Assembly (NCBI GenBank): GCA_018806985.1
Contig: JADANN010000404.1
Location: 620,001-684,000 of the forward strand
Reading direction: 5' to 3'
Length of the DNA: 64,000 nucleotides
From: Angiostrongylus vasorum
Taxonomy: Eukaryota > Nematoda > Chromadorea > Rhabditida > Metastrongylidae
Shown: one piece after another, positions 1,803 through 63,030 of the stretch
Position numbering within the stretch: the stretch's first letter is position 1
Layout of the letters: every line of letters begins with the position of its first letter
Translations under genes and position numbers: made by a program
Notes under the pieces: model-generated
Told to the model about the DNA's origin: nothing
Database searches by the model: none
What the model saw: only the letters and a program-made list of their open reading frames with translations

Positions 1803-4591
1803 TCACAGCGTTTCATCAGGCAATGGATAATTCTCTTTTTCCATACGATCTCCCACTTTGCGAATGACCTTCAGTCCAGCTGGAATACGAATCCGCGAAG
1901 CCAGACCACGATATCTGGATATAAAGTCTATTTCTAAGCACGTTACAGTACTATGGCTCTCTACAGGTTGTCACCTAAACCGATTACCTTGGATAGAGTA
2001 CAGCTGGTTGGTCGTAACCGTCCATGTGACCTCGGACATTATAGCGAGATAGTGTTTCGGTGGAAATTCGCTAAACGTGATATACATGGAATCTTTTGTG
2101 GGGAAAATAGTTAAACATCACTGCAAACGGCCCACAAAATAAACAACTAGGACACACCTCAATACCAAGCATCATACGAAGTTGGAGCATGTCATTTTGC
2201 TCTATGCCAGCCATTTCGCTTATATCCACGCTTTCATTCCAAAGATACTTGATGTGCGGATCAGGTTGTGCAGGTGGCATCATTCCACCTTGATCCAGTG
2301 GTCGAGGTGACGGAGCGTCCGAGCTGAATGGCCAAGGATATCTACTACCAATGGGGCTAGTCAGAGACCATGCAGCAGAAAAATTGTTAAAATTATCATC
2401 TGGACTCCCTTAAGAACACCACGGATACTTTCCATTGTTGTACTTTGTTCATTCCCGAACACACCTGGTAGAGCACTGCTGGATAAAAACGGAGCGCCAA
2501 GATTAGCGCACAGTACGGAGAGGAAGCAGAGAACTTCGGTGGGGATACTATTGATGATGGCCGTCAGCGAGGCGAAAAAGTACAAACTCCTCAAAAAAAT
2601 CCGGAGTTTAACACGAATTTCGGAAGGGTTCCATAATGCGACGATGCAAAGGCATCAACCATGGTATGGTAAAACACTGAGTTGGAAAGTACATTAGAGC
2701 AGTTAACTAATGACTTGGCAGTAAGCAGGTATAAGTCATGTCGTAGATATAGAGGTAGGTGAGGTGAAAAGCTAAAAAAATTTCTAAACAGATCATACTG
2801 AAACGTTCTCTATGAGGGAAGATCAGGCGACTTTTTACCCTGCTCATGATAAAAACAACTAAAAACCACTGAAATTTCGTATATATCGATGCCATGAGAT
2901 GCCAGTGGAATCTGTAGTACCTTCGTGTAGAACAAGCAGAGTCAGCACGACGATGAGAATCGCGAAACCACTCGGCCCATTCGAGGTCTTCATCCTCAGC
3001 TGTAGAAAAATCGGGATCCGAATCGATGAGTGGGACGTCGTTCGGACCCGGGGAGTATGAGATAATCATCCATATTCTACACTATGCATAGTATTAAAGT
3101 AAAGAAAAATTTTTTAACTAGAAATCAACCCAGAAAGAGAACGCAGTGACGACGAGTCTTAGCAAAGCCACCTGAGGCACTGAACATCATGACTAAGCTA
3201 CAGAAATAGATGAACACCGTCCAGAATGTCTTGTCGTCCATATGAAGGGGCGGGTGCGTTTTAGAAGGACGAAGACGTTGGTAACGCGTGACTAAGCGAT
3301 TTTGTCCCCAATAGCGCGGCGTGCCAGCTATTGTCCACCAGCGGAAGGCCACTTTACCGCTTCGAAACGCATTATTATGGCACCGACATGAAATGGTTCG
3401 CATCAAAGCCCCAGCGAAACAAGCATCGACAACACAGTCAACACACTGGAGCTATCAATTTATCATCAGAATGGAGCACTGCGCAATGACGGACAAATAG
3501 CAGCATTGTTGACAATTATGAAAATTTGAAGTTTGTAAACAGCTTAATACTCCAAACAATGACATTAACATTTCTTGAGGTAAAAGCATGGATATTATGG
3601 AAGCATTCACTGATCTCAAAACGCGGGTATTTTTTTTCTCAACGCCAAACGCACCGAGCATAAGCAATGAGAAATTGTTCGGCCGAATAGTCAGCTGAGC
3701 ATGTCAGCGAAAACACCACTAAACACGTCTTAGGCCATGGAAACAACTTCAACCGTTATCACCCATGAACACCAATAAAAAAACGAAGTAAAGGGCGGAA
3801 ACAACCAGTGTTATTTTGACATTGAGGGAACTTATACGTTAATACTTCTCTAATATGGGCATGGGTACACGAACACCATTCGAAGTGGACATAAGAAACC
3901 TTAATCACTACATAAGAACAGAGGGCGGAAGTTCATAAAGGTCCCAGTAAACAAAAAATGTCGACAAAAGCAAGTGCTAAGTACCGGAAGCACTTCCATT
4001 TGCTCAGATACCAACAACAAAGTGATTCGACTGCATTTATATACTTCGAAGAGGGTGTCACCAGAGCTTTTCAAGCGCTTGAACGGTATCTTAGTGGATA
4101 CTTCTAAGGAAAGGAAACAACACCATATATGGAACTCTAACATTATGAATAGAGAACGGTGTGGGGATCATTCCTTAGCCAGAACAGGGCCCATTGGATT
4201 AATCGCCACACAGAAATGTGCTTGCTTGTTACCCGTAAATAGCCTCTTAACATTGTCGTGGTGTTAAATAGGAATACTAGGAAACTCACTCATCTCGAGC
4301 TCGTCGCTGATTGTCTTTTTTGGCATTATCACGCTCTTTGAGTTGATTCATCAGATTCAAGTAGCTTACCCGATCGTATAAGTCGGAATCTAACTGCAAT
4401 GGTATAAATGAATGTTGTGAAATCAGTGTTATTTCTAACAGGTAATTGGCGCGTGGACACCTAACTGCCACCATAGTTCTAACCTCTTCCGGGGTCTCCA
4501 TTAGGCGTAGTTGTTCCTCTTTTTCAATTCTTTCTTTCACCCTGGCCTCCGACTCAGCAGACGCTTCCAATTTATTGGTAGCCACAGACTT
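1803..4591 (-). CDS. Unrecognised multi-exon gene with membrane and coiled-coil segments
   Basis: I do not recognise the family. Exons read on the minus strand: 4484-4591 and 4290-4393 (charged, helix-forming; contains ETPEE, LDSDLYDR and a KKDNQRRARDE tail), 3172-about 3451 (WWTIAGTPRYWGQN, then the hydrophobic TFWTVFIYFCSLVMMF), 2921-about 3070 (acidic, DEDLEWAEWFRDSHRR), 2465-2589 (hydrophobic, SLYFFASLTAIINS), 2158-2323, 1988-2070 and 1803-1914. The last three join in frame through GTGTGT and GTAATC donors and end at DETL and a TGA. The 2921/2589 junction also joins in frame (AG plus G makes Arg). The phases do not reconcile between 3172 and 3070, between 2465 and 2323, or between 4290 and the next exon, so some exons or boundaries are missing and this could be two genes. 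The start codon was not found. A possible further exon lies near 3990-4110 (STKIPFKRLKSSGDTLFE). Confidence 0.55.
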
Positions 4592-4619
4592 CTGAAAACG
4601 TAGTCAATTTTTTCATGAT

Positions 4620-5430
4620 AGAGCAGAAATATTTCCGCCTAAGTTGAGGTGAAGGGGGCTGTAAAGGTGGCAGCGGCTTACCAAGTGCGTTCAAGCACTA
4701 AATAAATATCATGTGAAAACATAAGAGTTGCACGATAATGAAAAAATGTGTGACTGGTAAGTAATGGCTGACAGAGAAATCGCTACAGAGAAGTAAAAGC
4801 GAGAATAGGCGGAGCTTTGTGGACGGATATCTCGTTGCATCGTAAAGTACGATTACCTTTCCAATACTTCCTATCCCACAAGTATACGTACTAAGAAATA
4901 ATTAGAAAGAATAGTAGCCACATGAAACGACTAACTACATCTTATTCCATAGCAGTTTCAAAAAATTGCAATCGAAGCATTCTTAGGCAACGAGGTGTGG
5001 AATTTTCCAGCAGTCACAAAATCGACATCGAAAATTGTACTACTTGACATTAACTACTTAAGGCTTTTAGAAATAGATCATAAAGCAATGTAGTAGCTAC
5101 GATTAATGTGCGCATAACCAGTGAAGGCTGCTAGAAGAATGCGCTATCCATAAACAAGTGGTATTCTTGACAGGAAAAGAGCCATTATGATCTCTGTCCC
5201 CGTCCGGCACTACACAATTCGGCTTAGCACTGCCATTACTATTACTTTACTATTACTATTCCCACTAACATTATCACTAATGCTACAATTACTACTGTTA
5301 TTATTATCACATTTTCATTACTATTAGCAACATCCTTACCACTATCAGATTGTAGGGAAATTAAAGCATCATTTCAACCAGTAGTTTTACAGCGACATAT
5401 CTCAAGTCGAAATAAGTTTTATTAATCGGA
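4620..5430. other. No gene; short ATT/ACT-rich stretch
   Basis: No coding exon is visible. About 5225-5345 is an irregular ATT/ACT-rich low-complexity run. It is either intronic to the flanking minus-strand exons or intergenic. Confidence 0.4.
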
Positions 5431-5435
5431 GTAAG

Positions 5436-6315
5436 GACCATTAGAACCTAAACATTTTTGCAAACAGAAATCCATTCATGTATTTAGGTTGCTTAAAACT
5501 TAGGGAGTTCTGGAATCGATGAAATCGTTCTGAAGGATGTTTCGACCTCGGCTTAGTTTCTGTGTAGCATTTCTCATACAAGTTACTAAGACGCTTGAAC
5601 AAGTGGCATTCAATATGCAGGCGCTCCAGTGAGTATGGTGCTCGAGGCAGAGTTTCCAACCCCAACTCGTTCAACCTTTGTAAGTTGGACAGTGCAATTT
5701 GCAGATGAGCGTTATCCTGGAGAAGATTTGGTTATTTTCTGTCGAAGAAGGTCGGCCGCAAAGGTCAGTTGTTCGCACATCTTGTCGATTTCATAGGCGT
5801 ACTCCTAGTTTCCTTACAGTACCCCTAATGGATCCAATCAGATTCAAGAGACCGAAATATCCAGGGTGACCTTCTCTTACGGTAATTTCGGTCATCAAAA
5901 GTGTTACGAAGTTTCATCGCGTTCCAACGGCCGACACGATCGGAGCAGCTTTTCACAGATGATCCATTTCTGGTCGCACGTTACAATCAATGGACAATAC
6001 GACTGAAAAACGGATCGTCCTAGTTGCCTCGATGAAGCGCCAAAGTACTTACAACGACGATTTTTTTGATTTTCATTCAATTCATACAATTATCTTTAGA
6101 TATCCTTAAACAGTTCAGGTGCTTCAATCTAGTTCCTCTACAAATTCAAGAACAGTTGTGGATCTATTTGCTTTAGCCAAAGCCTTTAATTCATGGTCGT
6201 CAATAAGTACGCGATTTCTCATCTTCAACGTCGAACTCGCCACGATGAGATTTTTGAAACAAACGCAGCACTGTTCATTCGTTAATAGTTCATTGAAATC
6301 GTAACTCAACAATGT
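5436..6315 (-). mobile_element. Mariner-family transposase remnant
   Basis: Pieces of a mariner transposase run in the correct order on the minus strand. About 6124-6312 encodes the N-terminal part (DDHELKALAKANRS, EFVEELD). About 5904-6089 encodes the block around the first catalytic Asp (ELNENQKNRR, then IVTCDQKWI). About 5441-5720 encodes the C-terminal block with LNELGLETLPRAPYS, the counterpart of the usual PHPPYSPDL motif, followed by HLFKRL. The frame is broken by stops and shifts, and the usual HDNARPH block is eroded, so no active protein is possible. No terminal inverted repeats were identified. The match to the SETMAR/cecropia-like mariner branch is from family knowledge. Confidence 0.8.
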
Positions 6316-6319
6316 TTCA

Positions 6320-6640
6320 AGCCGCTTCGCTGCAATACCTCCAAGTTTGAATCCGTAACATTAAGTTTGTAAAAATTACTGTTTTCACATCTGAAACTAT
6401 AGCGTTCAAATTTACCAAGGACACAATTTTTACCATAATTTATCTACACTGAATGAAAATTCATTAAATAAGGCTGGCGCAGATATATTATCGCACAGCG
6501 TGCAAAAAAAACCGCTAAAACATTTGCAAGGAAAGCAGAATTATAAATGCTCTAATTTCGGGGCAACGAAATATTTATTAGTGGTATTTATTACGAAACA
6601 TTACTTATTCTCATCATTAATACTATCACTTATTAACGTT
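6320..6640. other. No recognisable feature
   Basis: AT-rich sequence with no exon or repeat that I recognise. Confidence 0.4.
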
Positions 6641-9149: not shown

Positions 9150-10660
9150 TAGAGCGCTATATCGGGTTTTTAATAAGGAGAAAGAAAAAAAAACGACGAG
9201 TAGAGTGGAACTGCAGAAGTTTTTTCACAATCATACCCTAGTATTATCCCACTTAAGAAGGAAACCACGGCCGAGTGCACATAACTATGGGTGCACTGCA
9301 GTGAGATTATTCCGGAATAGCATTACAGCTCCCGAATTTGACTTATTCCTAACGATACTGCATAGTGCAAAGTGCTAAAAAGCGTAACTCTCAATAACCT
9401 CGCAGAAGTTCAAAAGTATGCAGCTTTTACAAATCCTCAAAATTTATGCAACCTTAGTCATATCAAAAATCACACGGTCAGAGATCAGTCACAAAGTTGT
9501 CAGTGATCATCATAACGAAGGTCCGCACATGAAAACCTCCCTCATCTACAAAACTTCTTTTCTGAAACCATTCCCACACTCTCACTCACTCACGCGGTGG
9601 CAGCCTTAAAGAATAATACTAAAAAATAATACTAATAAAGACCTCATTCTTCGAATTCCAAGAAACACCGAAGCAAAGTGACCGGTTCTTCGAATAAAAC
9701 ACCTGAAAAAAGAAATAAATCCCAGTCCTCGTCACCCTTTTTGCTCTGAAGAATCTACTCATATTTACATCACGCAGTGGGGTCATACATTTCAATACAC
9801 TGGTGAAGTTCCGATGTACTTGAGGAAATTGGCGTAGCACGCAAATGCTTTTCATAAAATTGAAAAGAACAAGCAGTAGAGCGTCCAGCTACTTACACTT
9901 TCGCAATCACACCTGCAAAAAGAATTTATTCCTCGCAAGAAACGTCGAACAATTTCTGAACTGGACAAGCCAATTTTCGTTCTCATCACAACAAGGTAAT
10001 CAACGGCGACACACATTGCAACTCTAGAACCACAAGGAGCAGTCCTTTATTAATGAAATCACATTTTACAGGTAGTAATTCACAGCACACATCACATCGA
10101 ACACTAAAGAATTTTAGCACCAAACAACAGAATAAACAAGAAGGACATCCCCCATATTGAGCCAAACTAGTAAAACGAACAGCGCGCTAAGAATAGAAAT
10201 CCATAAAACAATTACTCGTAAGTTCTGGAATTAAATGCAGTACATTTTTTTTTGGTTGAAAACAGTTGAAAGATACTCATAACACGGGAATACCAAATAA
10301 AATAACAATTTTCAACAAGTTTCATCTAAATCTATAGCAACTTCTTCCTCACTTGACCGATGTTCTGTCGGACTCAAGCCGCATAAAACATCGCGTGGAA
10401 CGTAGGTGTCTGATCTAAAGCGAAAATATTTCTACACACTTTTTTTTGCTCCATAATGGGAAAATATTCAGACTACCATACATAGTTGTGGTCTAAAATA
10501 CATTGACCAAGAAATCAAAGCAGATTCTACTCAGGTAATTTCAGAATAAATGGCACATCGTACATGTACTACGCAATTTCTCCACACCCTTAATAAAACT
10601 AGAAACGATTATGATGAAGGCATTAAGTGAAACAATAACCTGATGACAAGTGAAGTACTA
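9150..10660. other. No recognisable gene
   Basis: AT-rich sequence with scattered short open frames and no consistent splice context. Confidence 0.35.
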
Positions 10661-11029: not shown

Positions 11030-14000
11030 TCACAGACTGCTATCAAATGAATGAATTTCGGACGGAACACGCGTTGGCGGCAAGTTTTGAGACGAAGACG
11101 ATGGACCGGTTTGCAGTCGTCTTAGTACATCATCTCTTTCCTGAACTATTGCATTAAAACGTATAAAAAATTATCAACTCAGCCGTATGCAGATATCTGA
11201 CTTTATTCCGCTTTTATACAAGCTAAATGCAGACCTCTACACGACGGTATAAGTCGAATATATGCTCCTCTTGTTTGCGAACTACAGCTTGAAGAGAAAG
11301 AAACTTTTGTTCGGCAGCTTCTTTTTGTTCACGAAGCAACTAAAACCAGTTGACCGCAAAACATGTTCTCCCTCTATCAAAGTTTTCTGGGAAAAAACTC
11401 GCTAAAAATTCGTATAATCAACTCGGACCCATAAGAGCTTTGAAATTTCAAACGCTACTCAGGATGGTCTAACTCACATTTGTGGCTCGCTCCAACAATC
11501 CTTTCAATTCTGTGCTCCGCACACTTTCTGTTTTGCATATATGTTCCCATTCTAAGGCTCGAGATCTAAAACTGTTAGAAGAATAACCACATATGGCTAA
11601 CTCATAACGGTCCGCTACCGTATTTCGCAGTTCTCCCAAACGAATACAAGCAATTTTCATGCCAACTGCATATCACAGCTGAACTCATCCGCGCCTCACT
11701 ACGACGTTAATTAATACCTGTCACCAAGCTGATTTTGCGGCGGTGCACCGTTTTTTTTTTCGTCAAATTAAGAGGCTTCGGGAGTTTTGACCCCAATACT
11801 TTTAGTTTTGAAGCGAACATCTCCATCCTTAAACAGCCTTATAGCGCCCAAAGTACTGAATCAAGTAGTTACACTGCAACGATCGCATTGTTCATGCACG
11901 ATAAACTACCTTACTTAGACACAGAGAGCTGGAAAATGTAAATAAGTATGTCAGGAGCATGAGAGAAGGAAGCATGTCCTGAGATTAGCCGCGAATTTGC
12001 TGACTTTGTAGTAAATACTTTATCCTAAGGACGTGGCTAGCGCAGTGGTTAGAGGTGCCCTGCAACACACACATGTTCGATCTCGCGCCTCATGCTCATC
12101 AAGTTTCCATTCCTCCACGGTCGACAAGTTGCAATCAGACATGTCTGGGAGAATAGCACCAATCACTCGATACATCGGTAGGGAACTTCGAGTCATTACA
12201 TAGGCCAGAGCATTCAATCACCTTCAACAACGCTTAATGAAGTCGAATGCATGGCGCACTCCTGAGGGATTGAACAACTTACTGAGTGCTTTATCCTCTC
12301 TATAATTTCACTCTGTATTATTTCATTATCCGATTTTTTTGACTTCTTTCTTGCTTTTCTATTGCTTTTATAATTTTTGTTTTTCATTGTTGTTTTCTGG
12401 TATAGCGACTGATGCTTCTAGGGTCACGAAGAAGGTGAAAACAAAGAGGACAATGTGAAACGTTGCTGTCAAGGGAACTAGTAAGTATTTAAGCCTTTCC
12501 TTTAAATAGTTCTTGCGAATCTTTCTTTCCCATAGTTCAGGTATATCAGCTCATTTCAATGCATGTTTTCTAGGTGCATGGGAGATCTATTGCGACTACC
12601 TGCAAACAATTACGGCCGATGACTTGATGACACAAGTATTACGAAGCTGTTGTTGCTTTCCGATTGTGCGTTGTCCATTGTTGGTTGCAGATGAGAATCG
12701 ATTATGTGTCTATGGTGCAGTTTATGAAATAAATGTTTTTATACACTTCTGATGGGCGTGTGTTGCGCAGCGGTCGGAGGTGCCCTGTGACACACACATG
12801 GGATCGATCCTCGCGCGCGTGGTTCACCAAGCGTTCCATCTCCCCGGCTTCGGCAAACTGGTACCAGACTTGTCTGGAAGTATAGCAGCACTGGCTCGAT
12901 ACATCGGTAGGGCACCGCGAGTCATTGTAAAGGCGAGATATGCATTCAACCACCTCCAACGAAGCTTAATGAAGTTGAGTGCATGGCGCATCCCTCAGGG
13001 ATTGATCAACGCCGACAGCTTTATCCTTTTTTTACTCTTCTGATCCTCCTAACAATCTACATCCATATGGCGGCCAGGACATGTTCATGGGAGTCATGCT
13101 GCGGTGTACATGGTTCATCTCCTCAGCACGGCTTACCACGCTGAGAACGAGTTCGATGTTTCCATGCGCTTGCCCAGCTAAGATTAGACCAACACCACAA
13201 AGCACCACCGTGTTGGTACCAAACTAGTTCCAATGTGGTAAACCTCCCTCTGATCCATAAAGGCGGCGACTGCCTGGGGTGCTGAAGACCTGAGGAATTC
13301 TTCGGCTAAGCTAAGCGCGGGACTTCAGGGGATAACAATAGCTAAATCAACAAAACTCCGACCTCAGTACACCACACATTCAGCGCTCCTATCTACGACG
13401 TCGGGCGGTGAGACATGAGAGGCGATCAAATCTCAGATTGGAAAGTACGTAATTTGAAACGGACAAAATGAGCAAGCCCACGACACGCCATGGAGACCGC
13501 TTCTTGATGTGGCCCTATAACGCCAGAACAGTCTGTTCAGAAGCCAAACTTCACGCTATTCTTGAAACTGATGCCACCTCATACGAAATCCTAGTACCAC
13601 GCTTCGCCATTCTATTTTTCCAGCTTGAGCGTCAAAAGGAAGTCAGAGTCATCAACCATTACTCACCAATTTGTACAGCTGATGAGAGAGAACTAGGCGT
13701 GCTTTACAATCATTTGGAGGGAGTGACCCACAACGAGAAGTCTTTCTATAAACTCTTGATAGAGACATCCACGCGAGATCAGGAATGGCCAATGAAAATG
13801 AGTGCAGGGCTGGAAAATTCAGAACAGGGGAACGAAACGAGAATGAAAACCGCTTTGTAGAACTTCTGTATGCAGCATGATTCTTCCACAGTGATTCATT
13901 TTTCGAAAAGAGAGAAAATCGCCGATGGACACTGGAACTATAGTGGCCAAACCAGCAAATGTAAATTATGCTGTGCCCCGCACAACCAGTGAAGACAGGC

Positions 14001-17000
14001 TATCTAAGTATCTCAGCAAGAAAGTGTATTTTTCCGACCGTATTGGAGCTTCACATACTCTTCCCTCACCTTCCAACAATGCGTGGGGTGGTTCGTGAGT
14101 TCAATCCTTCCACTAGTTGTTAGGAGAGAAACCGGTCCATAGGAGACGGTTAGTATCTGTCATGATCACCTGGAAAACGTTGTAGTAGTGTTCCCTTGAA
14201 ATTCAATGGTGAATTATATTCGACAAGCAATTATTTCAATATGTTAGTGGTGATGGGACACTCCATATGCTCAAAGTCAACTTCCTGCAAAAAATGAATC
14301 ACCTCTGTTGTTACGCGATCACTTGTATCACCTGTCGTTCCTTTGATGGTGAGTGGCCCAAGTGGGCGCCAGTAAATCTTCCATTTTCCCTATCGCGTGC
14401 AAAACTAGCCTAGTAGGTTCTCCTCCCTCCAGAAACTCTTTAAGCATGACATCTTACTTCTAGCATTTTCATGAAGAACTCCGACCACCAAGTCGGTTTC
14501 CTGCAGCACGTTTGACATTCCGTGGAATCTAGTCACTAACGGCTCTTGTCGATCGGTTGTCGTTCATACGCATTACGTGTCCGGGCCATCTTACCTTCGA
14601 TAACTTAGCGTATAGAGCGGTATCTTTGATTTTTGATCGCTGACGCAGGTCGGAGGTTCGGATTCCTTCCTTCGCTTGTGTGATACGGGAGACTTTTAGC
14701 ATCGTCTTTTCGTCTGCGCGTTCTATAACGCAGAGTGATTTTTCACCCTGCTTACGTAGCGACCAGGTTTTTGGAGTACATGTTACGGCAGAAAGAATCG
14801 TGGAGTCGAAAACGTGAGCACGAAGTCAGGTGTTCTTTGTTATCTTCACTATATCCTCAATGATCTTGACAGCTTCCCGAGTCGCTCGTTTCCTTCTGCT
14901 CAACTCTAGGGTTAAGTCGTTCATCAAGTTGATTTCCTGACCTAGATAGATATAACTGGAGCATTCGGAGGTATTCGTACCGTTGAGCGTTAATGGTGCA
15001 TAAGAAACCAATCCGTTTCTTTTGAACATCGTTTTTGTGAGATTTAGTCGAAGACCAATTTAACATCGCTACAGAATGGCGATATTTTGGTCGCGAAATT
15101 TATATGGCTCACGAAGAATCTTTATAAAGAAAGTGAGACAGGACGGTTTCTTGTATTCTCGCGACACTTCAACGAGTCTTATTATCGCGTGGATTAGTCC
15201 ACTGTACTAAATCCTTTTCGAAACCTTGCATGTTCATAAGGTTGCTCTTCGTCCAATGTTCTGTCAGTCGAGCTTACGATGGCTCGAATGAAAAGTTTGT
15301 AGGCGATAGACAGTAAGCAGATTGGGCGATAGTTACCGATACCGTGGAGGTCATCCTTCTTGAACAATAGCAAGGTCTTGTTGGCCTTCCGCTGAGCAGT
15401 AACCTTGCCTTCAGACAGGTAACGTGTGAAGAGTGGAGCCAGTGTATTTATGAGAACTGGTGAAAGGTTCTTCAGGCGTTCAAATCTTATCCCGTCCGGG
15501 CCTGGTGTTGAACGATTCTTCAGTGACGAAATCGCATGTCGGATTTTGGAAGAGATAACCGGTGGTACGACAAACCCATCTTCCTTTACTTAATATGAGG
15601 GCAAGAGTACGTGGAAAACTGAAGAGATCTGAGCAGTAATCGTGACTGATTTTCTCCATTGCCTTTCTGGAAGCTGTAGCTGTTCAATTCCACTTCGCCC
15701 TTGTCGTACTTTCTCTTTCTTATCTGCACGATCAAGTCTTCTGTCGAGGACTCCGATGCAAGCATGCGGATTGTAGGTAAAGATTGTCGCCTTAGCCCTT
15801 TGCAATTTAGGCAGCATAGGATGGCCTCAGATTTTAGCAGCCTCTCGGTACTCGTCCCTACCCAACGCTGCTGTATGGGGGGGTTCATCCTGGGTCAGGG
15901 GGAATCAGGCCCGTTTACTTTTTTTTTTGTTTAGGTTTTTGATACCCACGTACAGCTTGCCGAGCTCTGAACGAGGGGGGCTGGGTATACTCATGGGTAG
16001 CTTTCCAGTCTCTTCAAAAGTGGACATGGAGGTTGTTTCTTGGAAGCGACTCCTAACCGCCTCCCATATACTTCTGTGCCACTTGACACATTGACACATG
16101 TCACACTGTAGGTTTTTGGCCGAACTGACTCGTATAACAAAATTCACATAAACGAGAACACACCCACGCAAGTATTCACAAATACGTACTCATAAACACA
16201 GAATATAAGAGGCTTGAGTCAAATCGTCACGTGGTGCAGGGAGTCCGTCCCCTGGATTCACCTGCGGCCCAAGAAGCAAACATCGCTTTAGGTCCGCGAT
16301 ACCCTTATCCGCCACCTGGAGACGCGCCACGTTTCCTCGCGATTAACCGACATGAGATTCCCCTATGAGGAAGATCCGTGGTGGCTATGAGATAATGAAA
16401 CAAACGAAGAAAGTCCCCCGAAATACTTTCAGAAGAGGTAATTATTGCGGATTAGAGAATATCTCAAAATAAACCGCACATCTGACACATGAAGTAGGCG
16501 GACTGAGCTGCCCAAGGCACACATTAACACAAGGAACACTTAATTTTGCTCAACAAATGTCATATCCTCCCAAGTGATACTAATGGTACGTTGTTTAATT
16601 TGATTCCGCTCACCACAACGGACCCGCTTGCCACTGATCAATGTGAAAGAGCAACTTGATAAATTGTGAAGGCTTTAGATGATAAGACAAGTGGTTTTGA
16701 GCAGTATTTTTGAAAACAGTGAAAAGTTATCACAGTAAGCATTCAAAACTGTTTCCAAACATGCAACGCGACAAATCACATCGTTGACCAACTACTTTGT
16801 CGGTGCCCATCGTTTTCTAAACATTATTTGTAGTTTTGTTGGCGTGTGCCATACATTTATTACTATATAACATGTGTAAAGTCCTTTCCATGGCCTATTT
16901 CCATATAATCTGTGTATTTTTCGAAGTGTTGCATGTTAGGGTGTATCGCTGCAAAATGAACTCTTCCGACAGGATGCTTTTTGTAAATAAGCAGGTGTAG

Positions 17001-20000
17001 AAAGTGGCTTTTTCTGGTCTCACCCCCTAATATTTCGACCTTCTTTCGACTAGCTGCTGAATTGCGGTAAAAAATAAACTCTGGAACCCACTAACTTCAA
17101 TATGGGCACTATAGTGTCCAAAGGGAGAGAGAGAGGGAGAGGGAGAGAGAGGGAGGGAGGGAGGGAGGGAGGGAGGGAGGGAGGGAGGGAGGGAGGGGGA
17201 GGGAGGGAGGGAGGGAGGGAGGGAGGGAGGGAGGGAGGGAGGGAGGGAGGGAGGGAGAGAGAGAGAGAGGGAGGGAGGGAGAGAGAGAGAGGGGGGAGGG
17301 TTGGGACTGAGCAGAAGAGCAGTACCTACCTAACACTCCATGTCAATAAGAAAAACGTCAGATTTTTTTTACATCCTCGATAGACAAGTAGTTCCAACTT
17401 TCCTTGTATAAAGATAATACACCCCTATTTGAGGACTCAAAACAAACACAAATTTGGTTCGATTTACAATTACTCTGCAATTTAAAATTTCTTACAATAT
17501 ACCCATAACAAGCCAACTACTAACACGCTTTCAGATAATGAAACGTGAGCAAAGCGTGCGAACAAGAAAACGCACTTGTACTCCTCAACATTACTTCGCT
17601 GATCAACAAGTTCCGCTTGTGCACGTTCTAAGTCTTGTCTAAGTCGTTCTCGTCTTACATTTCCATGTTTTAATCGTAGATAACGTTCTTCTTCACAACG
17701 TGATTCTAGCTAGAAAAAAAGACATCACAAAAAGTAAGAGTGACATTTGCAAGTCTTGCTGGCATTTGCTAATGGCAAATGTGTCACCTGATAAGGATCA
17801 GAACTGCGAATTGCAACATTGAAGAATGGATCACTAATATTTAAAGAATTGAAAAGTTAGCAACAAGATCCCAACAAAGTAAAAGATTTAGATAAAGATT
17901 AAAACTCTACCACACGCAGTTGATCGCGAAGTTGCTGGTTTACAGCGTGAGACTTCTTAAGCTCCTGCATCTTCGTCTGCAACTGAATGAGTTGAACGGA
18001 AACAAAACAACAAATCAGATAAAGAGCTAATTGCAGAGCTACCTCTAAAGAAACAAGCTGTAACCGTAACATACGTGCATGTTCCTCCGCATCATCAGTA
18101 CGTCTACGACAATGATCGATCTAAATAACTGGTTTACCAACAAAAACAGGATGATCATATCCAGAGAACATGGAATCATCCTAAACACCTGGCTTTTCCA
18201 CCGACTGAGTTCCAGATCTGCCGACTCCTTCTGAGATGTAGCTTCATACAACCTTTCGTTTAAACGATAGCACTCCGCTTCCAACTCCCTCATCTTATCA
18301 AGCATCTCACCTTCCGCTGTAGCACGATTTCTTTTTTCTGTGTCAAGTGAACGCCTGAGACCAGACAAAGCGGAGATCAATTCCTTTCTGAAATAGGAGA
18401 AGCAATGCAAGTATATGCTTCAGTGCTTAACGTACCGGTATAAAAATGCTCATTATATGAATAAGCTCACCTTTCACCACTAATAGCGTGGAGGTTTTCC
18501 TTCAGTTGTTCTAATTCGGCTTCGGTTACCTAAGTAAATGACAATCAAGAGAAAATTACAAAGGTGAATATCAACATAAATATGATACCTTCTGCAATTT
18601 AATTCTGCCAAAAAGCCTTCGATTACGATTTGCATGTAAAAGGCGACAACTCCGTTCATAAAGTAAGTGTTGATTGACTAAGACCAGCCGGGCTCGAAGA
18701 ACATCGCGCTGGGAATTCACACAACGTATTAGTGAACACAACAGTTCCAAAAAAGAAAAAAAAATTTTCAGGAAGAACTGCATCCATGTTGACCGTAAAT
18801 GTCCGATATGTAAAGCGTTCGGTATTGATCAATACTTTACATATGTATAATGCGTTCTACCCTATTAAACATAATAGAATTGAACGAATGCATATTTGGT
18901 CTATGCAATGACTGGAGACAATCTGCTAATATATCATGTGATTGTTTCTATCCCTTTAGACAAGTCTGAATCCAATTTTCCGATACTCAAGGGATGAAAG
19001 ATGAAAGGCTTACTTGCTTCGCAACGTAGGTTACCAACCTTGTGTGAAGGACACTTCTAACCAGGACTCTATACGCATCCCGATGTAAAGTATTTGATAT
19101 AAAAAATAAAACGAATGGCTGAGTAGTAATAATACCGGCAAGATCTAACACGTCACAAACCTGCTTCTCCATAGGAAGACCTTCAGTTATATGCGTCATA
19201 TCATCATAAATTCTTCCAGGAAGGCGGTCTGCTATTCCTAGTTCCTTGAGACAGTGATGGAAATCCTAATAACGTGGTCATTTAAACATTAAAAAATTTA
19301 ATTTAAAAATGTGAACTCTTAGGATTTTATGCAGACTCTGCTTCTTTCCATATAAGAAGCTCTTCGTAGTTCATGCTCACTTTCCAAGTAAGCTTCGATC
19401 TCTGCATCTGAAAGAACATATCCAAATTAAACGACATGAAAGATTTTAAAACATTCTTAAAAGTTGGTAAATTCCCAGATGTAGAACTCACAATGTTCTT
19501 TTTCCCGTGAGATGTAATGAGTCTGAGGTAGGGAAACCTCTCCAATAAATTTGCTTCTGCTGCCTTTGTGTTGATTTCAGCACGGACCAAACCGATGGGA
19601 GCTCGACTTTCACCAATAACATTGGGACATGACGTCACTCGGGTAAGGAAATGCACAGCTTCTTCTGAATGACGAGCATTTTGGTTGCTTGTAGACGGAA
19701 TAGTGGGGTGACGCTCACTAGCAAACCTCTGTCTGCATGAAGAAGGCCAAATTCATGCACGTAAAAAATCGTTGTTTCAAAAAGTAGTGCCCTAGAGGAC
19801 TGGAAATTGGATAAAATTCTAAGAAAGCAACCATACCGATTCAACTTAGAAAAGAACGATCCTATTGAAAATCGGTTTCGAGTACTTTCAGGGTTGTCAT
19901 TACTCCCAATATAGTCAGAATCGTTTTGCTTAAAAAGCAATATATTGGATCAAACCAACCAGGTGAAACTACAATAGTTGTAAAGAATAATACAAAGACT

Positions 20001-59764: not shown

Positions 59765-62700
59765 GGCAACCTAGTGTTCCTGAGTGGCTGATAGGGTATT
59801 AATCGCGGACCAAAAAGCGACCTTATGCTTCCCAGAGACGCAAACGGACCTAGGAGATGGACTCCATCGTATTGCTGCGCAGATTTGGCACGTACCTTCT
59901 GTATTTACAAGTACGTATTCATGCATGCGTGCGTATATGTGTTCTCGTTCACGTGGATTGCATTCTACGAGCCAGTTCGGCCAAAAGTCTGCAACCAAGT
60001 AACAGGGAATTATATGGGAGGCGGTTAGGAGTCAGACCTCACAAATAAGCTCCTTCTGTACTGTGTTATAGCTCAGCATGCTATACGTTGGTATCAAAAA
60101 GCTAAACATAGTAGAATGAACAGGCCCCGTTCCTCTGACCACGAAGGAGCCCCTGTATACCAGCGTTGAGGGAGACGAGTACGGAGAAGCTGCTAAAGTC
60201 TCAGAGCCATTCCACGCTGCCTAAATCGCAAATGACAAGGCGACGATCTTTACCTACAAAGCACACACACTTGCATCTGAATCCTCGATTGAAGACTTGA
60301 TTATGCAGATAAGAAAGAGAAAGTACGACGTCATCGCAGTGGCTGAGACCAGAAGGCGCCACCCATTCAACGGGTTCTGCGACACCGGAGAAGAACTGTT
60401 TCTCGGAACCACATCACAGTAGAGGAGTCGATGGCGTCGGCGTCCTCGTCAACACGAGTTTGTCCATGAACATTGATTCATTCGATTAACTAGCAACCTG
60501 AATCGGACGTTAACTGTTTAAAAGAAGTGAATCAATACCGGCTTTAACAATCTTTGTCGTTTACGCACTGATATCAAGCTGTGGCTATGAAGAATTCGAA
60601 GAGTTCTATATGGACTTGGAAATTTTCTACAGAGAAGGCAACACGTTTTTCAAGGTGGTCGTTGGAAGTCTTAACGCCAAGATTGGACCCAGAAGAACAT
60701 CTGAAGAACGACACACTGGGATCTACTGATTAGAATGGAACGATCAAGGTAAGCCGCTGTCTGACTTTATCGTGACGACCAAAACTCATTCATTGTAACT
60801 CGCTATTCCAGAGCCACCTTTCTCAACGCTGAACGTGGGAGACTTCCAGTGGAGAGTACCATAAGGAAATAAACAACACCATAGTAAGTCGAAGGTTTTG
60901 CCTCAGTGATGTCACTGTTGTCCAAAATTCTACACGAAATCAGACCATAGCCTCCTCGTGCAAGACTTCATTTCCCGCGGAAAGGAGAAAATACCACTAA
61001 ACAAATCGCAAAACCACCACAACCTGGGATTTATTCAGTTCATTAGCCGGCTGTTGAAAAGATGCCGTTCTCCATAACACCGACGAGGAATACTACGGGC
61101 TCATTCAACATCTTCACGTTAGCATATGGAAGATGAGAGTTCAAAAGTCACCAAGAGATGTGCGCCTCCAGAAATACTCAAGCTGATTCGTCAGCGTGCA
61201 ATCGCACGAGCTACAGGCAATTGCCAACTCACGTTCAAATTTGCAAAACAATGGAGACAGGCGCTAAAAAGAAGATCTTAAAGAGAGAGAGCAACAGTTA
61301 TGGTCGAAGGTGCAGAGGTTGGCAAAAGCATTCGCCTTCCAGAAAAGCGATGGAGAAAATCATTCACCATTACAACTCGGATCTTTTCAACAGCCGCATC
61401 CTTCTCTTATGTGAAATAAAGGACGGAAATGTCGTCCCACTGGGTGTCCCTTTCGAAATCTGACATGCTATTTCGTAGTGAAGAACAACACTAGGTCCGG
61501 AGAGGATAAGTTGTGAACACCTGGAAAACCTTCCACCAACCCTCATACACATATTGCCTCGGCTGTTCACAAATTAACTCTCTGAATGCAAGGTCCCTAC
61601 TCAGTAGAAGACGAGCAAGACCGTGTTGTTGTTCAGGAAGGGTGACCTGCACGATTTCGGCAACTATCGCCCAATCTGCTTGCTGTCTTTCGTCTACAAA
61701 CTTTTCCCTCGAGTCCTAGGTAGCGGTGACAAAACAGCGGAGCAAGGACAGCCATATGAGCAAGTAGGGTTTCGAAAAGGATTCAGTGCGATAGACCATA
61801 CCCACACGATAACGCGACGCATTGAAGTGTCGTGTGAGCACAAAAGATCGATCTGTCTCACTTTCATCGATTTAAAGAAGGCTTTTAACTCAGCCGAGAT
61901 CGAAGCAGTCATGGAAGCCCTGAACAGTCAAGGAGTCTCTACTCAATATATAAAGATTCTTCGTGACCTGCATAAGAATTTGGCAACCAGGGCATCACGA
62001 TTCTACATCGGTATTAACATCGACGTCAAAAGAGGGGTTAGGCGAGGCGATACCATCTCGTCAAAATTATTCACCGCCACCCTCGACAACATTGAGCATT
62101 GGAATGAGATAATAGGGCAATGAAAATTGATGATTAGAAATTACACTATTTTAGCTTTGCTGATGACATTGTTCTTATAATACTAGTCATTAACTAAGTG
62201 GAACAAATGCTAAGCGACTTTGATAACTGTTGTGGAAGGATTGGTTTTCGACGAAATCTCAAAAAAAGACGATGTTCATGAGGAACGGATTGGTTTCGTA
62301 AGCTCCATTCAGCCTCAGTAGTGCGAATGTCTGCGAATATTCCAACTACGTCTATTTTAGACGGAAAATAAGCATGATGAGCGACTTAGCTCTCGAGTTG
62401 AGCAGGTGGAAGCGAGCTGCTTAGGGAGCAACCAAAAGCATCAACGTTATAGGGAACAGAACAAAGAACACCCTGAGTCCATGCCCACCTTTTCGACTCA
62501 ACGGGACTTCCTGCCTTAACGTAAGCGTCAGAAACCTGGTCGCTGAGTAAGCAAGATGAATGGTCGCTCGGTGTTAGTGAACGTGAAATCGAAAGAACGA
62601 TGCTTGGAGTATCCTATATTCCGCAAGTAAGGGAAGGAATCCGGACCACAACGGCGATCAGAATTCTCATACGCCGTTCTATACGCCAAAATGTCGAAGA

Positions 62701-63030
62701 TATGGTGTGCCGAAATGAGTTTGGTAGATGACCGATGGACAGGAGCCGTTAGTAAGTGGATTCCCTCAGAATGTCAAACGTACTTCAGGAAGGTCACCAA
62801 ACCGATGGTCATAATTCTTCACCAAAACCCTAGAAGAAGTATTTGATGTTCAACAAGTCTCCAGAGTGAGCGGAACCCATAGGGTTATTCCCGACTGTGG
62901 CAAGGAAAAATGGTACATATACTGGCGCCGGCTCCAGCCACTCCACCATCAACGGGACGAAAGGTGGTGCAGGTGTCATTATTACTATTGTTGTTGTTAT
63001 GGCATAAAGTGTCTAACCTTCTTGAAATCG
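59765..63030 (+). mobile_element. RTE-type LINE, copy 2, defective
   Basis: The 5' leader matches copy 1. The endonuclease start (LASESSIEDLIMQIRKRKYD, then the catalytic-Glu block AETRRRHPF) lies at about 60250-60420. Reverse transcriptase is best seen at 61623-62123: NYRPICLLSFVYKLF, VGFRKGFSAIDH, FIDLKKAFNS, GVRRGDTISSKLF. The FADD active-site block survives near 62155 in another frame, and a WYIYWRRL-like C-terminus lies near 62915. Multiple stops and frameshifts make it inactive. Confidence 0.9.

Follow-up and report, generated by a model that had tools for sequence, protein, structure and literature searches.

A hamartin (TSC1) gene in a strongylid nematode whose genome also encodes tuberin and Rheb

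The minus strand of the window, which is the whole 64,000-nucleotide stretch of nematode DNA analysed here, carries between positions 10312 and 22966 a 24-exon gene for hamartin (TSC1). Its exons were traced on the sequence and then against P0001, a hypothetical protein of Angiostrongylus cantonensis (Angca_003601, 1063 aa) that served as the reference for the exon chain. Genes for tuberin (TSC2) and Rheb were found in the same genome. We consider it very probable that this is the hamartin of a metastrongylid worm, that it acts with tuberin and Rheb to restrain TORC1, and that the faults observed at some of its splice junctions are local changes or due to the assembly. By orthology, the HEAT-repeat core and the long coiled coil of hamartin would scaffold tuberin, the Rap-GAP domain of tuberin would switch off Rheb, and TORC1 growth signalling would be restrained as a consequence.

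The open reading frame (ORF) containing exon E4 (21612-22496) matched the Pfam family Hamartin (PF04388) at 4.3e-29 (102.3 bits, curated cut-off 25.9), and P0001 scored 175.1 bits with the same profile. Joined exons E1 to E4 matched the human hamartin chains 7dl2_D and 9ce3_C in the PDB at about 3e-29; this match covers residues 8-284 of the 360-residue query, so the core sequence is common to the human and the worm protein, but the middle linker had no match. A search of the assembly (279.9 Mb, 468 contigs) with the Hamartin profile returned only one place, the E4 of the window itself, on contig C404. When each exon was read in the frame of the relative, 1005 of 1046 aligned residues were identical to P0001 (96%), and the pieces spanned the whole of this protein, whose record does not bear the name hamartin. 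The start at 22966 is consistent with the N-termini of the relatives, and the tail encoded by the last exon, SDTYVPRDVLCGLSPTEHRSSEEEVAIDLDETC, corresponds to the C-terminus of P0001. The conserved coiled-coil block YER..RNRRL was present, and 8 of 8 relatives scanned carry it with small variants. The structure predicted for P0001, which was compared in place of the window protein, contains helices at 709-886 and 905-1008, and its fold agrees with the solved TSC1 structures of human (9ce3, 7dl2) and S. pombe (4kk0).

The stretch therefore encodes hamartin, as had been proposed in the original prediction, which was made from the letters of the DNA. All the motifs that it listed were located: REPHDK in E2, LYGIYPTNFISYLRNHF and RWHQRESHD in E4, NQHLLYERS and NRNRRL in E15, and EEHIFDLYRRVE in E22. 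The gene end that it placed at 11030 was incorrect, given that this stop sits just past the GT donor of E23 (exon end 11034) and that the last exon was missed. Junctions were placed with a script that accepts GT/GC-AG junctions preserving the frame of the relative, and the resulting gene is as follows.

E1, 22870..22966, minus strand: start codon at 22966, MTDILKQ.
E2, 22707..22801, minus strand: contains REPHDK; 31/31 residues identical to P0001.
E3, 22551..22617, minus strand: donor GC instead of GT; 22/22 identical to P0001.
E4, 21666..22486, minus strand: hamartin core with LYGIYPTNFISYLRNHF and RWHQRESHD; 266/273 identical to P0001.
E5, 21499..21584, minus strand: 26/28 identical to P0001.
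E6, 21374..21441, minus strand: not in register with E5; in the homologous frame, 18/19 aligned residues match P0001.
E7, 21237..21303, minus strand: not in register with E6; in the homologous frame, 17/19 aligned residues match P0001.
E8, 21055..21162, minus strand: 31/35 identical to P0001.
E9, 20281..20420, minus strand: placed by P0001 alignment and junction script.
E10, 20004..20088, minus strand: placed by P0001 alignment and junction script.
E11, 19837..19928, minus strand: placed by P0001 alignment and junction script.
E12, 19492..19732, minus strand: 3' end out of register with E13; 71/79 identical to P0001.
E13, 19337..19407, minus strand: 21/23 identical to P0001.
E14, 19161..19265, minus strand: placed by P0001 alignment and junction script.
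E15, 18589..18708, minus strand: coiled-coil block NQHLLYERSCRLLHANRNRRL, motif-scanned in the eight relatives; 40/40 identical to P0001.
E16, 18471..18529, minus strand: placed by P0001 alignment and junction script.
E17, 18189..18387, minus strand: placed by P0001 alignment and junction script.
E18, 18043..18120, minus strand: placed by P0001 alignment and junction script.
E19, 17911..17976, minus strand: placed by P0001 alignment and junction script.
E20, 17576..17709, minus strand: placed by P0001 alignment and junction script.
6-kb intron between E20 and E21, 11566..17575, minus strand: simple repeat, dispersed repeats and a degraded retroelement-like stretch.
E21, 11478..11565, minus strand: 29/29 identical to P0001; a second possible acceptor lies 6 nt upstream (exon start 11571), and with it P0001 is reproduced.
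E22, 11235..11339, minus strand: contains EEHIFDLYRRVE; 35/35 identical to P0001.
E23, 11034..11140, minus strand: 35/35 identical to P0001.
E24, 10312..10414, minus strand: last exon, with the stop codon; 29/30 identical to the C-terminus of P0001.

A possible extra exon at about 11605-11660 (IACIRLGELRNTVADRYELA), which had been part of the provisional query, was dropped; it is absent from the aligned relatives. The intron that follows E3 (22486-22551) has the GC donor, and another A. cantonensis gene model, P0003, skips this exon. Fewer than 15 nt upstream of the start codon (22967-22980, minus strand) there is an acceptor-like site, TTTCCAG, together with an out-of-frame ATG; this could be a trans-splice site yielding a message with a short leader.

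At 20 of the 23 junctions the expected sites preserve the frame of P0001 and the length is unchanged; these 20 include one with a GC donor (E3 end, 22551) and one, E7/E8, with weaker similarity (79/119). The other three depart from P0001, which is read in a single frame: E5/E6 fits only with displaced splice sites (41/117), E6/E7 only with a displaced acceptor and four residues short (89/126), and E12/E13 only with displaced sites (68/109). The single open frame of about 1032 codons described in the original prediction is thus sustained over most of the gene, but at these three junctions it probably reflects displaced splice sites. Because they are out of register, the description of the gene as apparently intact is unproven.

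These junctions could be real lesions in a recently disabled gene, which would leave the species or isolate with no full-length hamartin. Several results weigh on this side and against a functional gene. The exons add up to 3202 nt, which is not divisible by three, and when the same script was applied to tuberin in the same assembly, 14 of 14 junctions fitted, in contrast to the three of 23 out of register in TSC1. This control was run against an A. cantonensis partial protein, P0022 (825 aa), and covers the C-terminal half of tuberin, with the N-terminal half outside it; because all of its junctions fitted, a recent lesion in TSC1 keeps some weight. However, no premature stop was found inside any of the 24 exons in the homologous frame, protein identity to A. 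cantonensis is high, two of the three sites fall within the linker, where conservation is poor, and an open frame can be obtained with nearby splice sites at all three junctions.

The distribution of the substitutions also bears on this question. Conservation was scored in four other strongylids (P0002, P0004, P0005 and P0006; 103 aligned residues were dropped for gaps). The window and P0001 differ at only 7 of the 473 conserved columns, of which the window departs at 2 and P0001 at 5, whereas they differ at 27 of the 470 other columns. With three relatives (P0002, P0005 and P0006) the differences were 8 in 542 conserved columns and 26 in 444 others. Changes at conserved columns are few, and the pattern is therefore that of a gene under purifying selection which, judging from these alignments, acted up to the present or the very recent past. 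Most likely, the three junctions represent indels introduced by the assembly, or local changes for which neighbouring splice sites compensate, rather than long-standing decay, and we regard a recently disabled hamartin as unlikely.

Searching the genome for Rap_GAP domains turned up five places, of which the one on contig C148 is tuberin. With the exon encoding its GTPase-activating (GAP) domain, the human tuberin chains 7dl2_A (1.6e-9) and 9ce3_A (1.7e-9) ranked first in the PDB, followed by 6ssh_A, a GTPase activator-like protein (1.6e-8), and then by Rap1GAP (4.8e-4). An upstream exon had 29 PDB matches, but only two tuberin chains (1.3e-7 and 1.4e-7) had an independently passing stretch; the other 27, including the top row at 2e-10, were armadillo-repeat proteins, nearly all designed, with scores that sum weak repeats. 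Six tuberin exon ORFs were scanned, which revealed DUF3384 twice (3.7e-12, and 5.6e-5, below the cut-off), Tuberin (2.2e-15) and Rap_GAP (2.3e-15), with no domain match in two of the six. The search for tuberin that the original prediction had suggested therefore recovered TSC2 with its three domains. Its exons are colinear along P0022 and P0020. An apparent frame change at about 523930 of C148 was discarded as the annotated start of P0020, since P0016 and P0017 match the frame of the genome.

Among the other Rap_GAP places, a RalGAP-alpha homologue was found on C420 (9qwp_A, 4.5e-19), and the remaining three were labelled, by eye only, as SPAR/SIPA1-like and Rap1GAP-like. One of the five, L002 (C364:5640650-5641189), encodes a Rap_GAP protein in a single uninterrupted frame of 779 codons; at the other four, the match is a short exon within a frame of 82-123 codons. 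Rheb lies on C187 as three colinear pieces with 48-51% identity, one of which contains an in-frame TGA inside the matched stretch. For the first piece, the best 14 PDB matches were all Rheb or RhebL1, with Ras next. A human TBC1D7 query, used without a positive control, had no match in the genome; PMC5745459 describes TBC1D7 as vertebrate-specific. The control of growth by TSC and Rheb put forward in the original prediction is thus backed by the presence of both genes, while the formation of the complex, its GAP activity on Rheb and the control of TORC1 would follow by orthology.

It could also be argued that hamartin works outside TORC1 in this worm, and that a RalGAP does the Rheb-GAP job, as has been proposed for HGAP-1/2 in C. 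elegans. The RalGAP-alpha homologue in the same genome favours this idea, as does the loss of hgap-1/2 in C. elegans, which is cited as phenocopying mTORC1 activation in PMC5839386. Nevertheless, a tuberin bearing Rap_GAP is kept alongside hamartin here and in many other nematodes. The canonical role fits better because both partners have been kept together with Rheb, and we find a role outside TORC1 quite improbable. As for contamination of the contig by DNA from another animal, a possibility raised in the original prediction, no point in its favour was found and we give it practically no credit, given that further copies of repeats from the TSC1 intron and from elsewhere in the window are present on contig C148 of this assembly (40 longest matches listed), the best database match of the hamartin is A. 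cantonensis, the tuberin exons are mostly more than 90% identical to the A. cantonensis partial protein, and C404 is 1.14 Mb long.

To place the gene among its relatives, the translated exons were compared with other hamartins, using protein searches that scored only the candidates sharing most exact words, so that absence from their lists is not evidence. With the window query, at least 13 proteins with PF04388 were obtained, from A. cantonensis (2), Parelaphostrongylus tenuis, Dictyocaulus, Nippostrongylus (2), Cylicocyclus, Strongylus, Ancylostoma ceylanicum, Mesorhabditis belari, two further contigs and one fish. The best match was the A. cantonensis orthologue, and the window grouped with A. 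cantonensis in the tree (100/98). In agreement with the strongylid origin considered in the original prediction, these sequences place the worm as a strongylid near A. cantonensis, which we take to belong to the Metastrongyloidea. Hamartins of this group are already in public databases: P. tenuis P0002, a full-length strongylid protein 74% identical to the provisional query, and several others bear that name.

A search seeded with Mesorhabditis and strongylid sequences gave at least four proteins, two of them new, from Mesorhabditis spiculigera (P0015) and Caenorhabditis auriculariae (P0014); this list did not include the other strongylid hamartins of the first search. P0014 (1428 aa, on a 676-kb contig) has a Hamartin domain (2.8e-45), like the window gene, and carries the RW..RE.HD and NQHLLYE.SCRLLH.NRNRRL blocks as RWMQREPHD and NQHLLYEQSCRLLHSNRNRRL, although it is only 31% identical to P0001 and its genus is reported to lack TSC1. 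The tree had 12 rows, with the window represented by its E1-E5 part only, P0003, P0007, P0008 and P0009 left out, and the partial P0010 and P0011 kept. In this tree P0014 forms a long separate branch, an argument against contamination by strongylid DNA; with branches of this length, its exact position is tentative.

The tuberin search gave at least 19 proteins, and all 18 that are named come from nematodes: Ancylostoma, Necator (2), Nippostrongylus (2), P. tenuis, A. cantonensis, Dictyocaulus (2), Heligmosomoides, Oesophagostomum, Auanema, Heterorhabditis, three Pristionchus species including P. pacificus, Acrobeloides nanus and Diploscapter pachys. The three tuberin domains were all present in 11 of the 19 listed proteins, P. 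pacificus P0030 among them; the Diploscapter record has the N-terminal domain only, and that of Heterorhabditis has no Rap_GAP. Mesorhabditis, Pristionchus, Auanema, Acrobeloides and Diploscapter are free-living. Since free-living Mesorhabditis has hamartin and the other four have tuberin, retention as a trait of parasites is not supported. These sequences indicate that the TSC complex is widely distributed among these nematodes, in free-living as well as parasitic species.

The window contains other features outside the exons. The 6-kb intron (11566-17575) includes a long CCCT/CTCC simple repeat and a degraded retroelement-like stretch with a weak RVT_1 match (E 0.011, below the cut-off); parts of it match a place on C148 that is also matched by window positions 61338-62975. 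Downstream of TSC1, several coding-like ORF pieces on the minus strand at 1812-6360 (among them 4289-4600, 2923-3051 and 6124-6360) resemble a second gene. Six ORF pieces at 2071-6360 had no match in Pfam.

The absence of both genes from C. elegans, stated in the original prediction, is in print. Tatebe and Shiozaki (2017, PMC5745459) report that five Caenorhabditis species lack both TSC1 and TSC2, with the proviso that this depends on annotation, and PMC5839386 mentions no obvious TSC homologues in the nematode and points to the RalGAP HGAP-1/2. The C. auriculariae genome paper (PMC7991662) groups this species with C. monodelphis and C. sonorae as the basal members of the genus, and the words 'TSC1' and 'hamartin' do not occur in its main text. 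No report of a nematode TSC1 or TSC2 was found among the literature titles and abstract openings listed, where the poor coverage of subscription journals makes this weak evidence of novelty. The proposal that hamartin was retained in parasitic relatives and lost in Caenorhabditis holds for the strongylids, but free-living nematodes also keep TSC genes and C. auriculariae keeps hamartin. Given this protein, TSC1 loss seems to lie inside the genus and not before it, affecting only part of Caenorhabditis, and not to be common to nematodes. Most likely, these nematodes inherited the TSC complex from their common ancestor, and the loss of TSC1 came within Caenorhabditis, once the C. auriculariae lineage had branched off. 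We lean, with less assurance, towards the broader view that the whole hamartin-tuberin-Rheb axis is an ancestral system found widely across both Rhabditina and Tylenchina, and that its dismantling was confined to Caenorhabditis and followed that branching. If so, the control of TORC1 by RalGAP in C. elegans would have replaced it only recently, and nematode TSC could be studied with C. auriculariae or Pristionchus as models.

C. elegans, which has lost the hamartin-tuberin-Rheb system in part, serves as the standard for work on growth, dauer and ageing in nematodes, and accounts of its TORC1 pathway contain no TSC. Should many nematodes, such as P. pacificus and strongylid parasites, keep TSC1-TSC2-Rheb, those accounts would describe a special case, and conclusions from C. 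elegans on nutrient control of larval arrest should then not be transferred untested to parasites. The hamartin of C. auriculariae offers tractable species in which to compare the loss and replacement of TSC1. The gene itself is ordinary; its value lies in the correction that it suggests, namely that many nematodes keep the TSC complex, which may be relevant to arrest and dormancy in the parasites.
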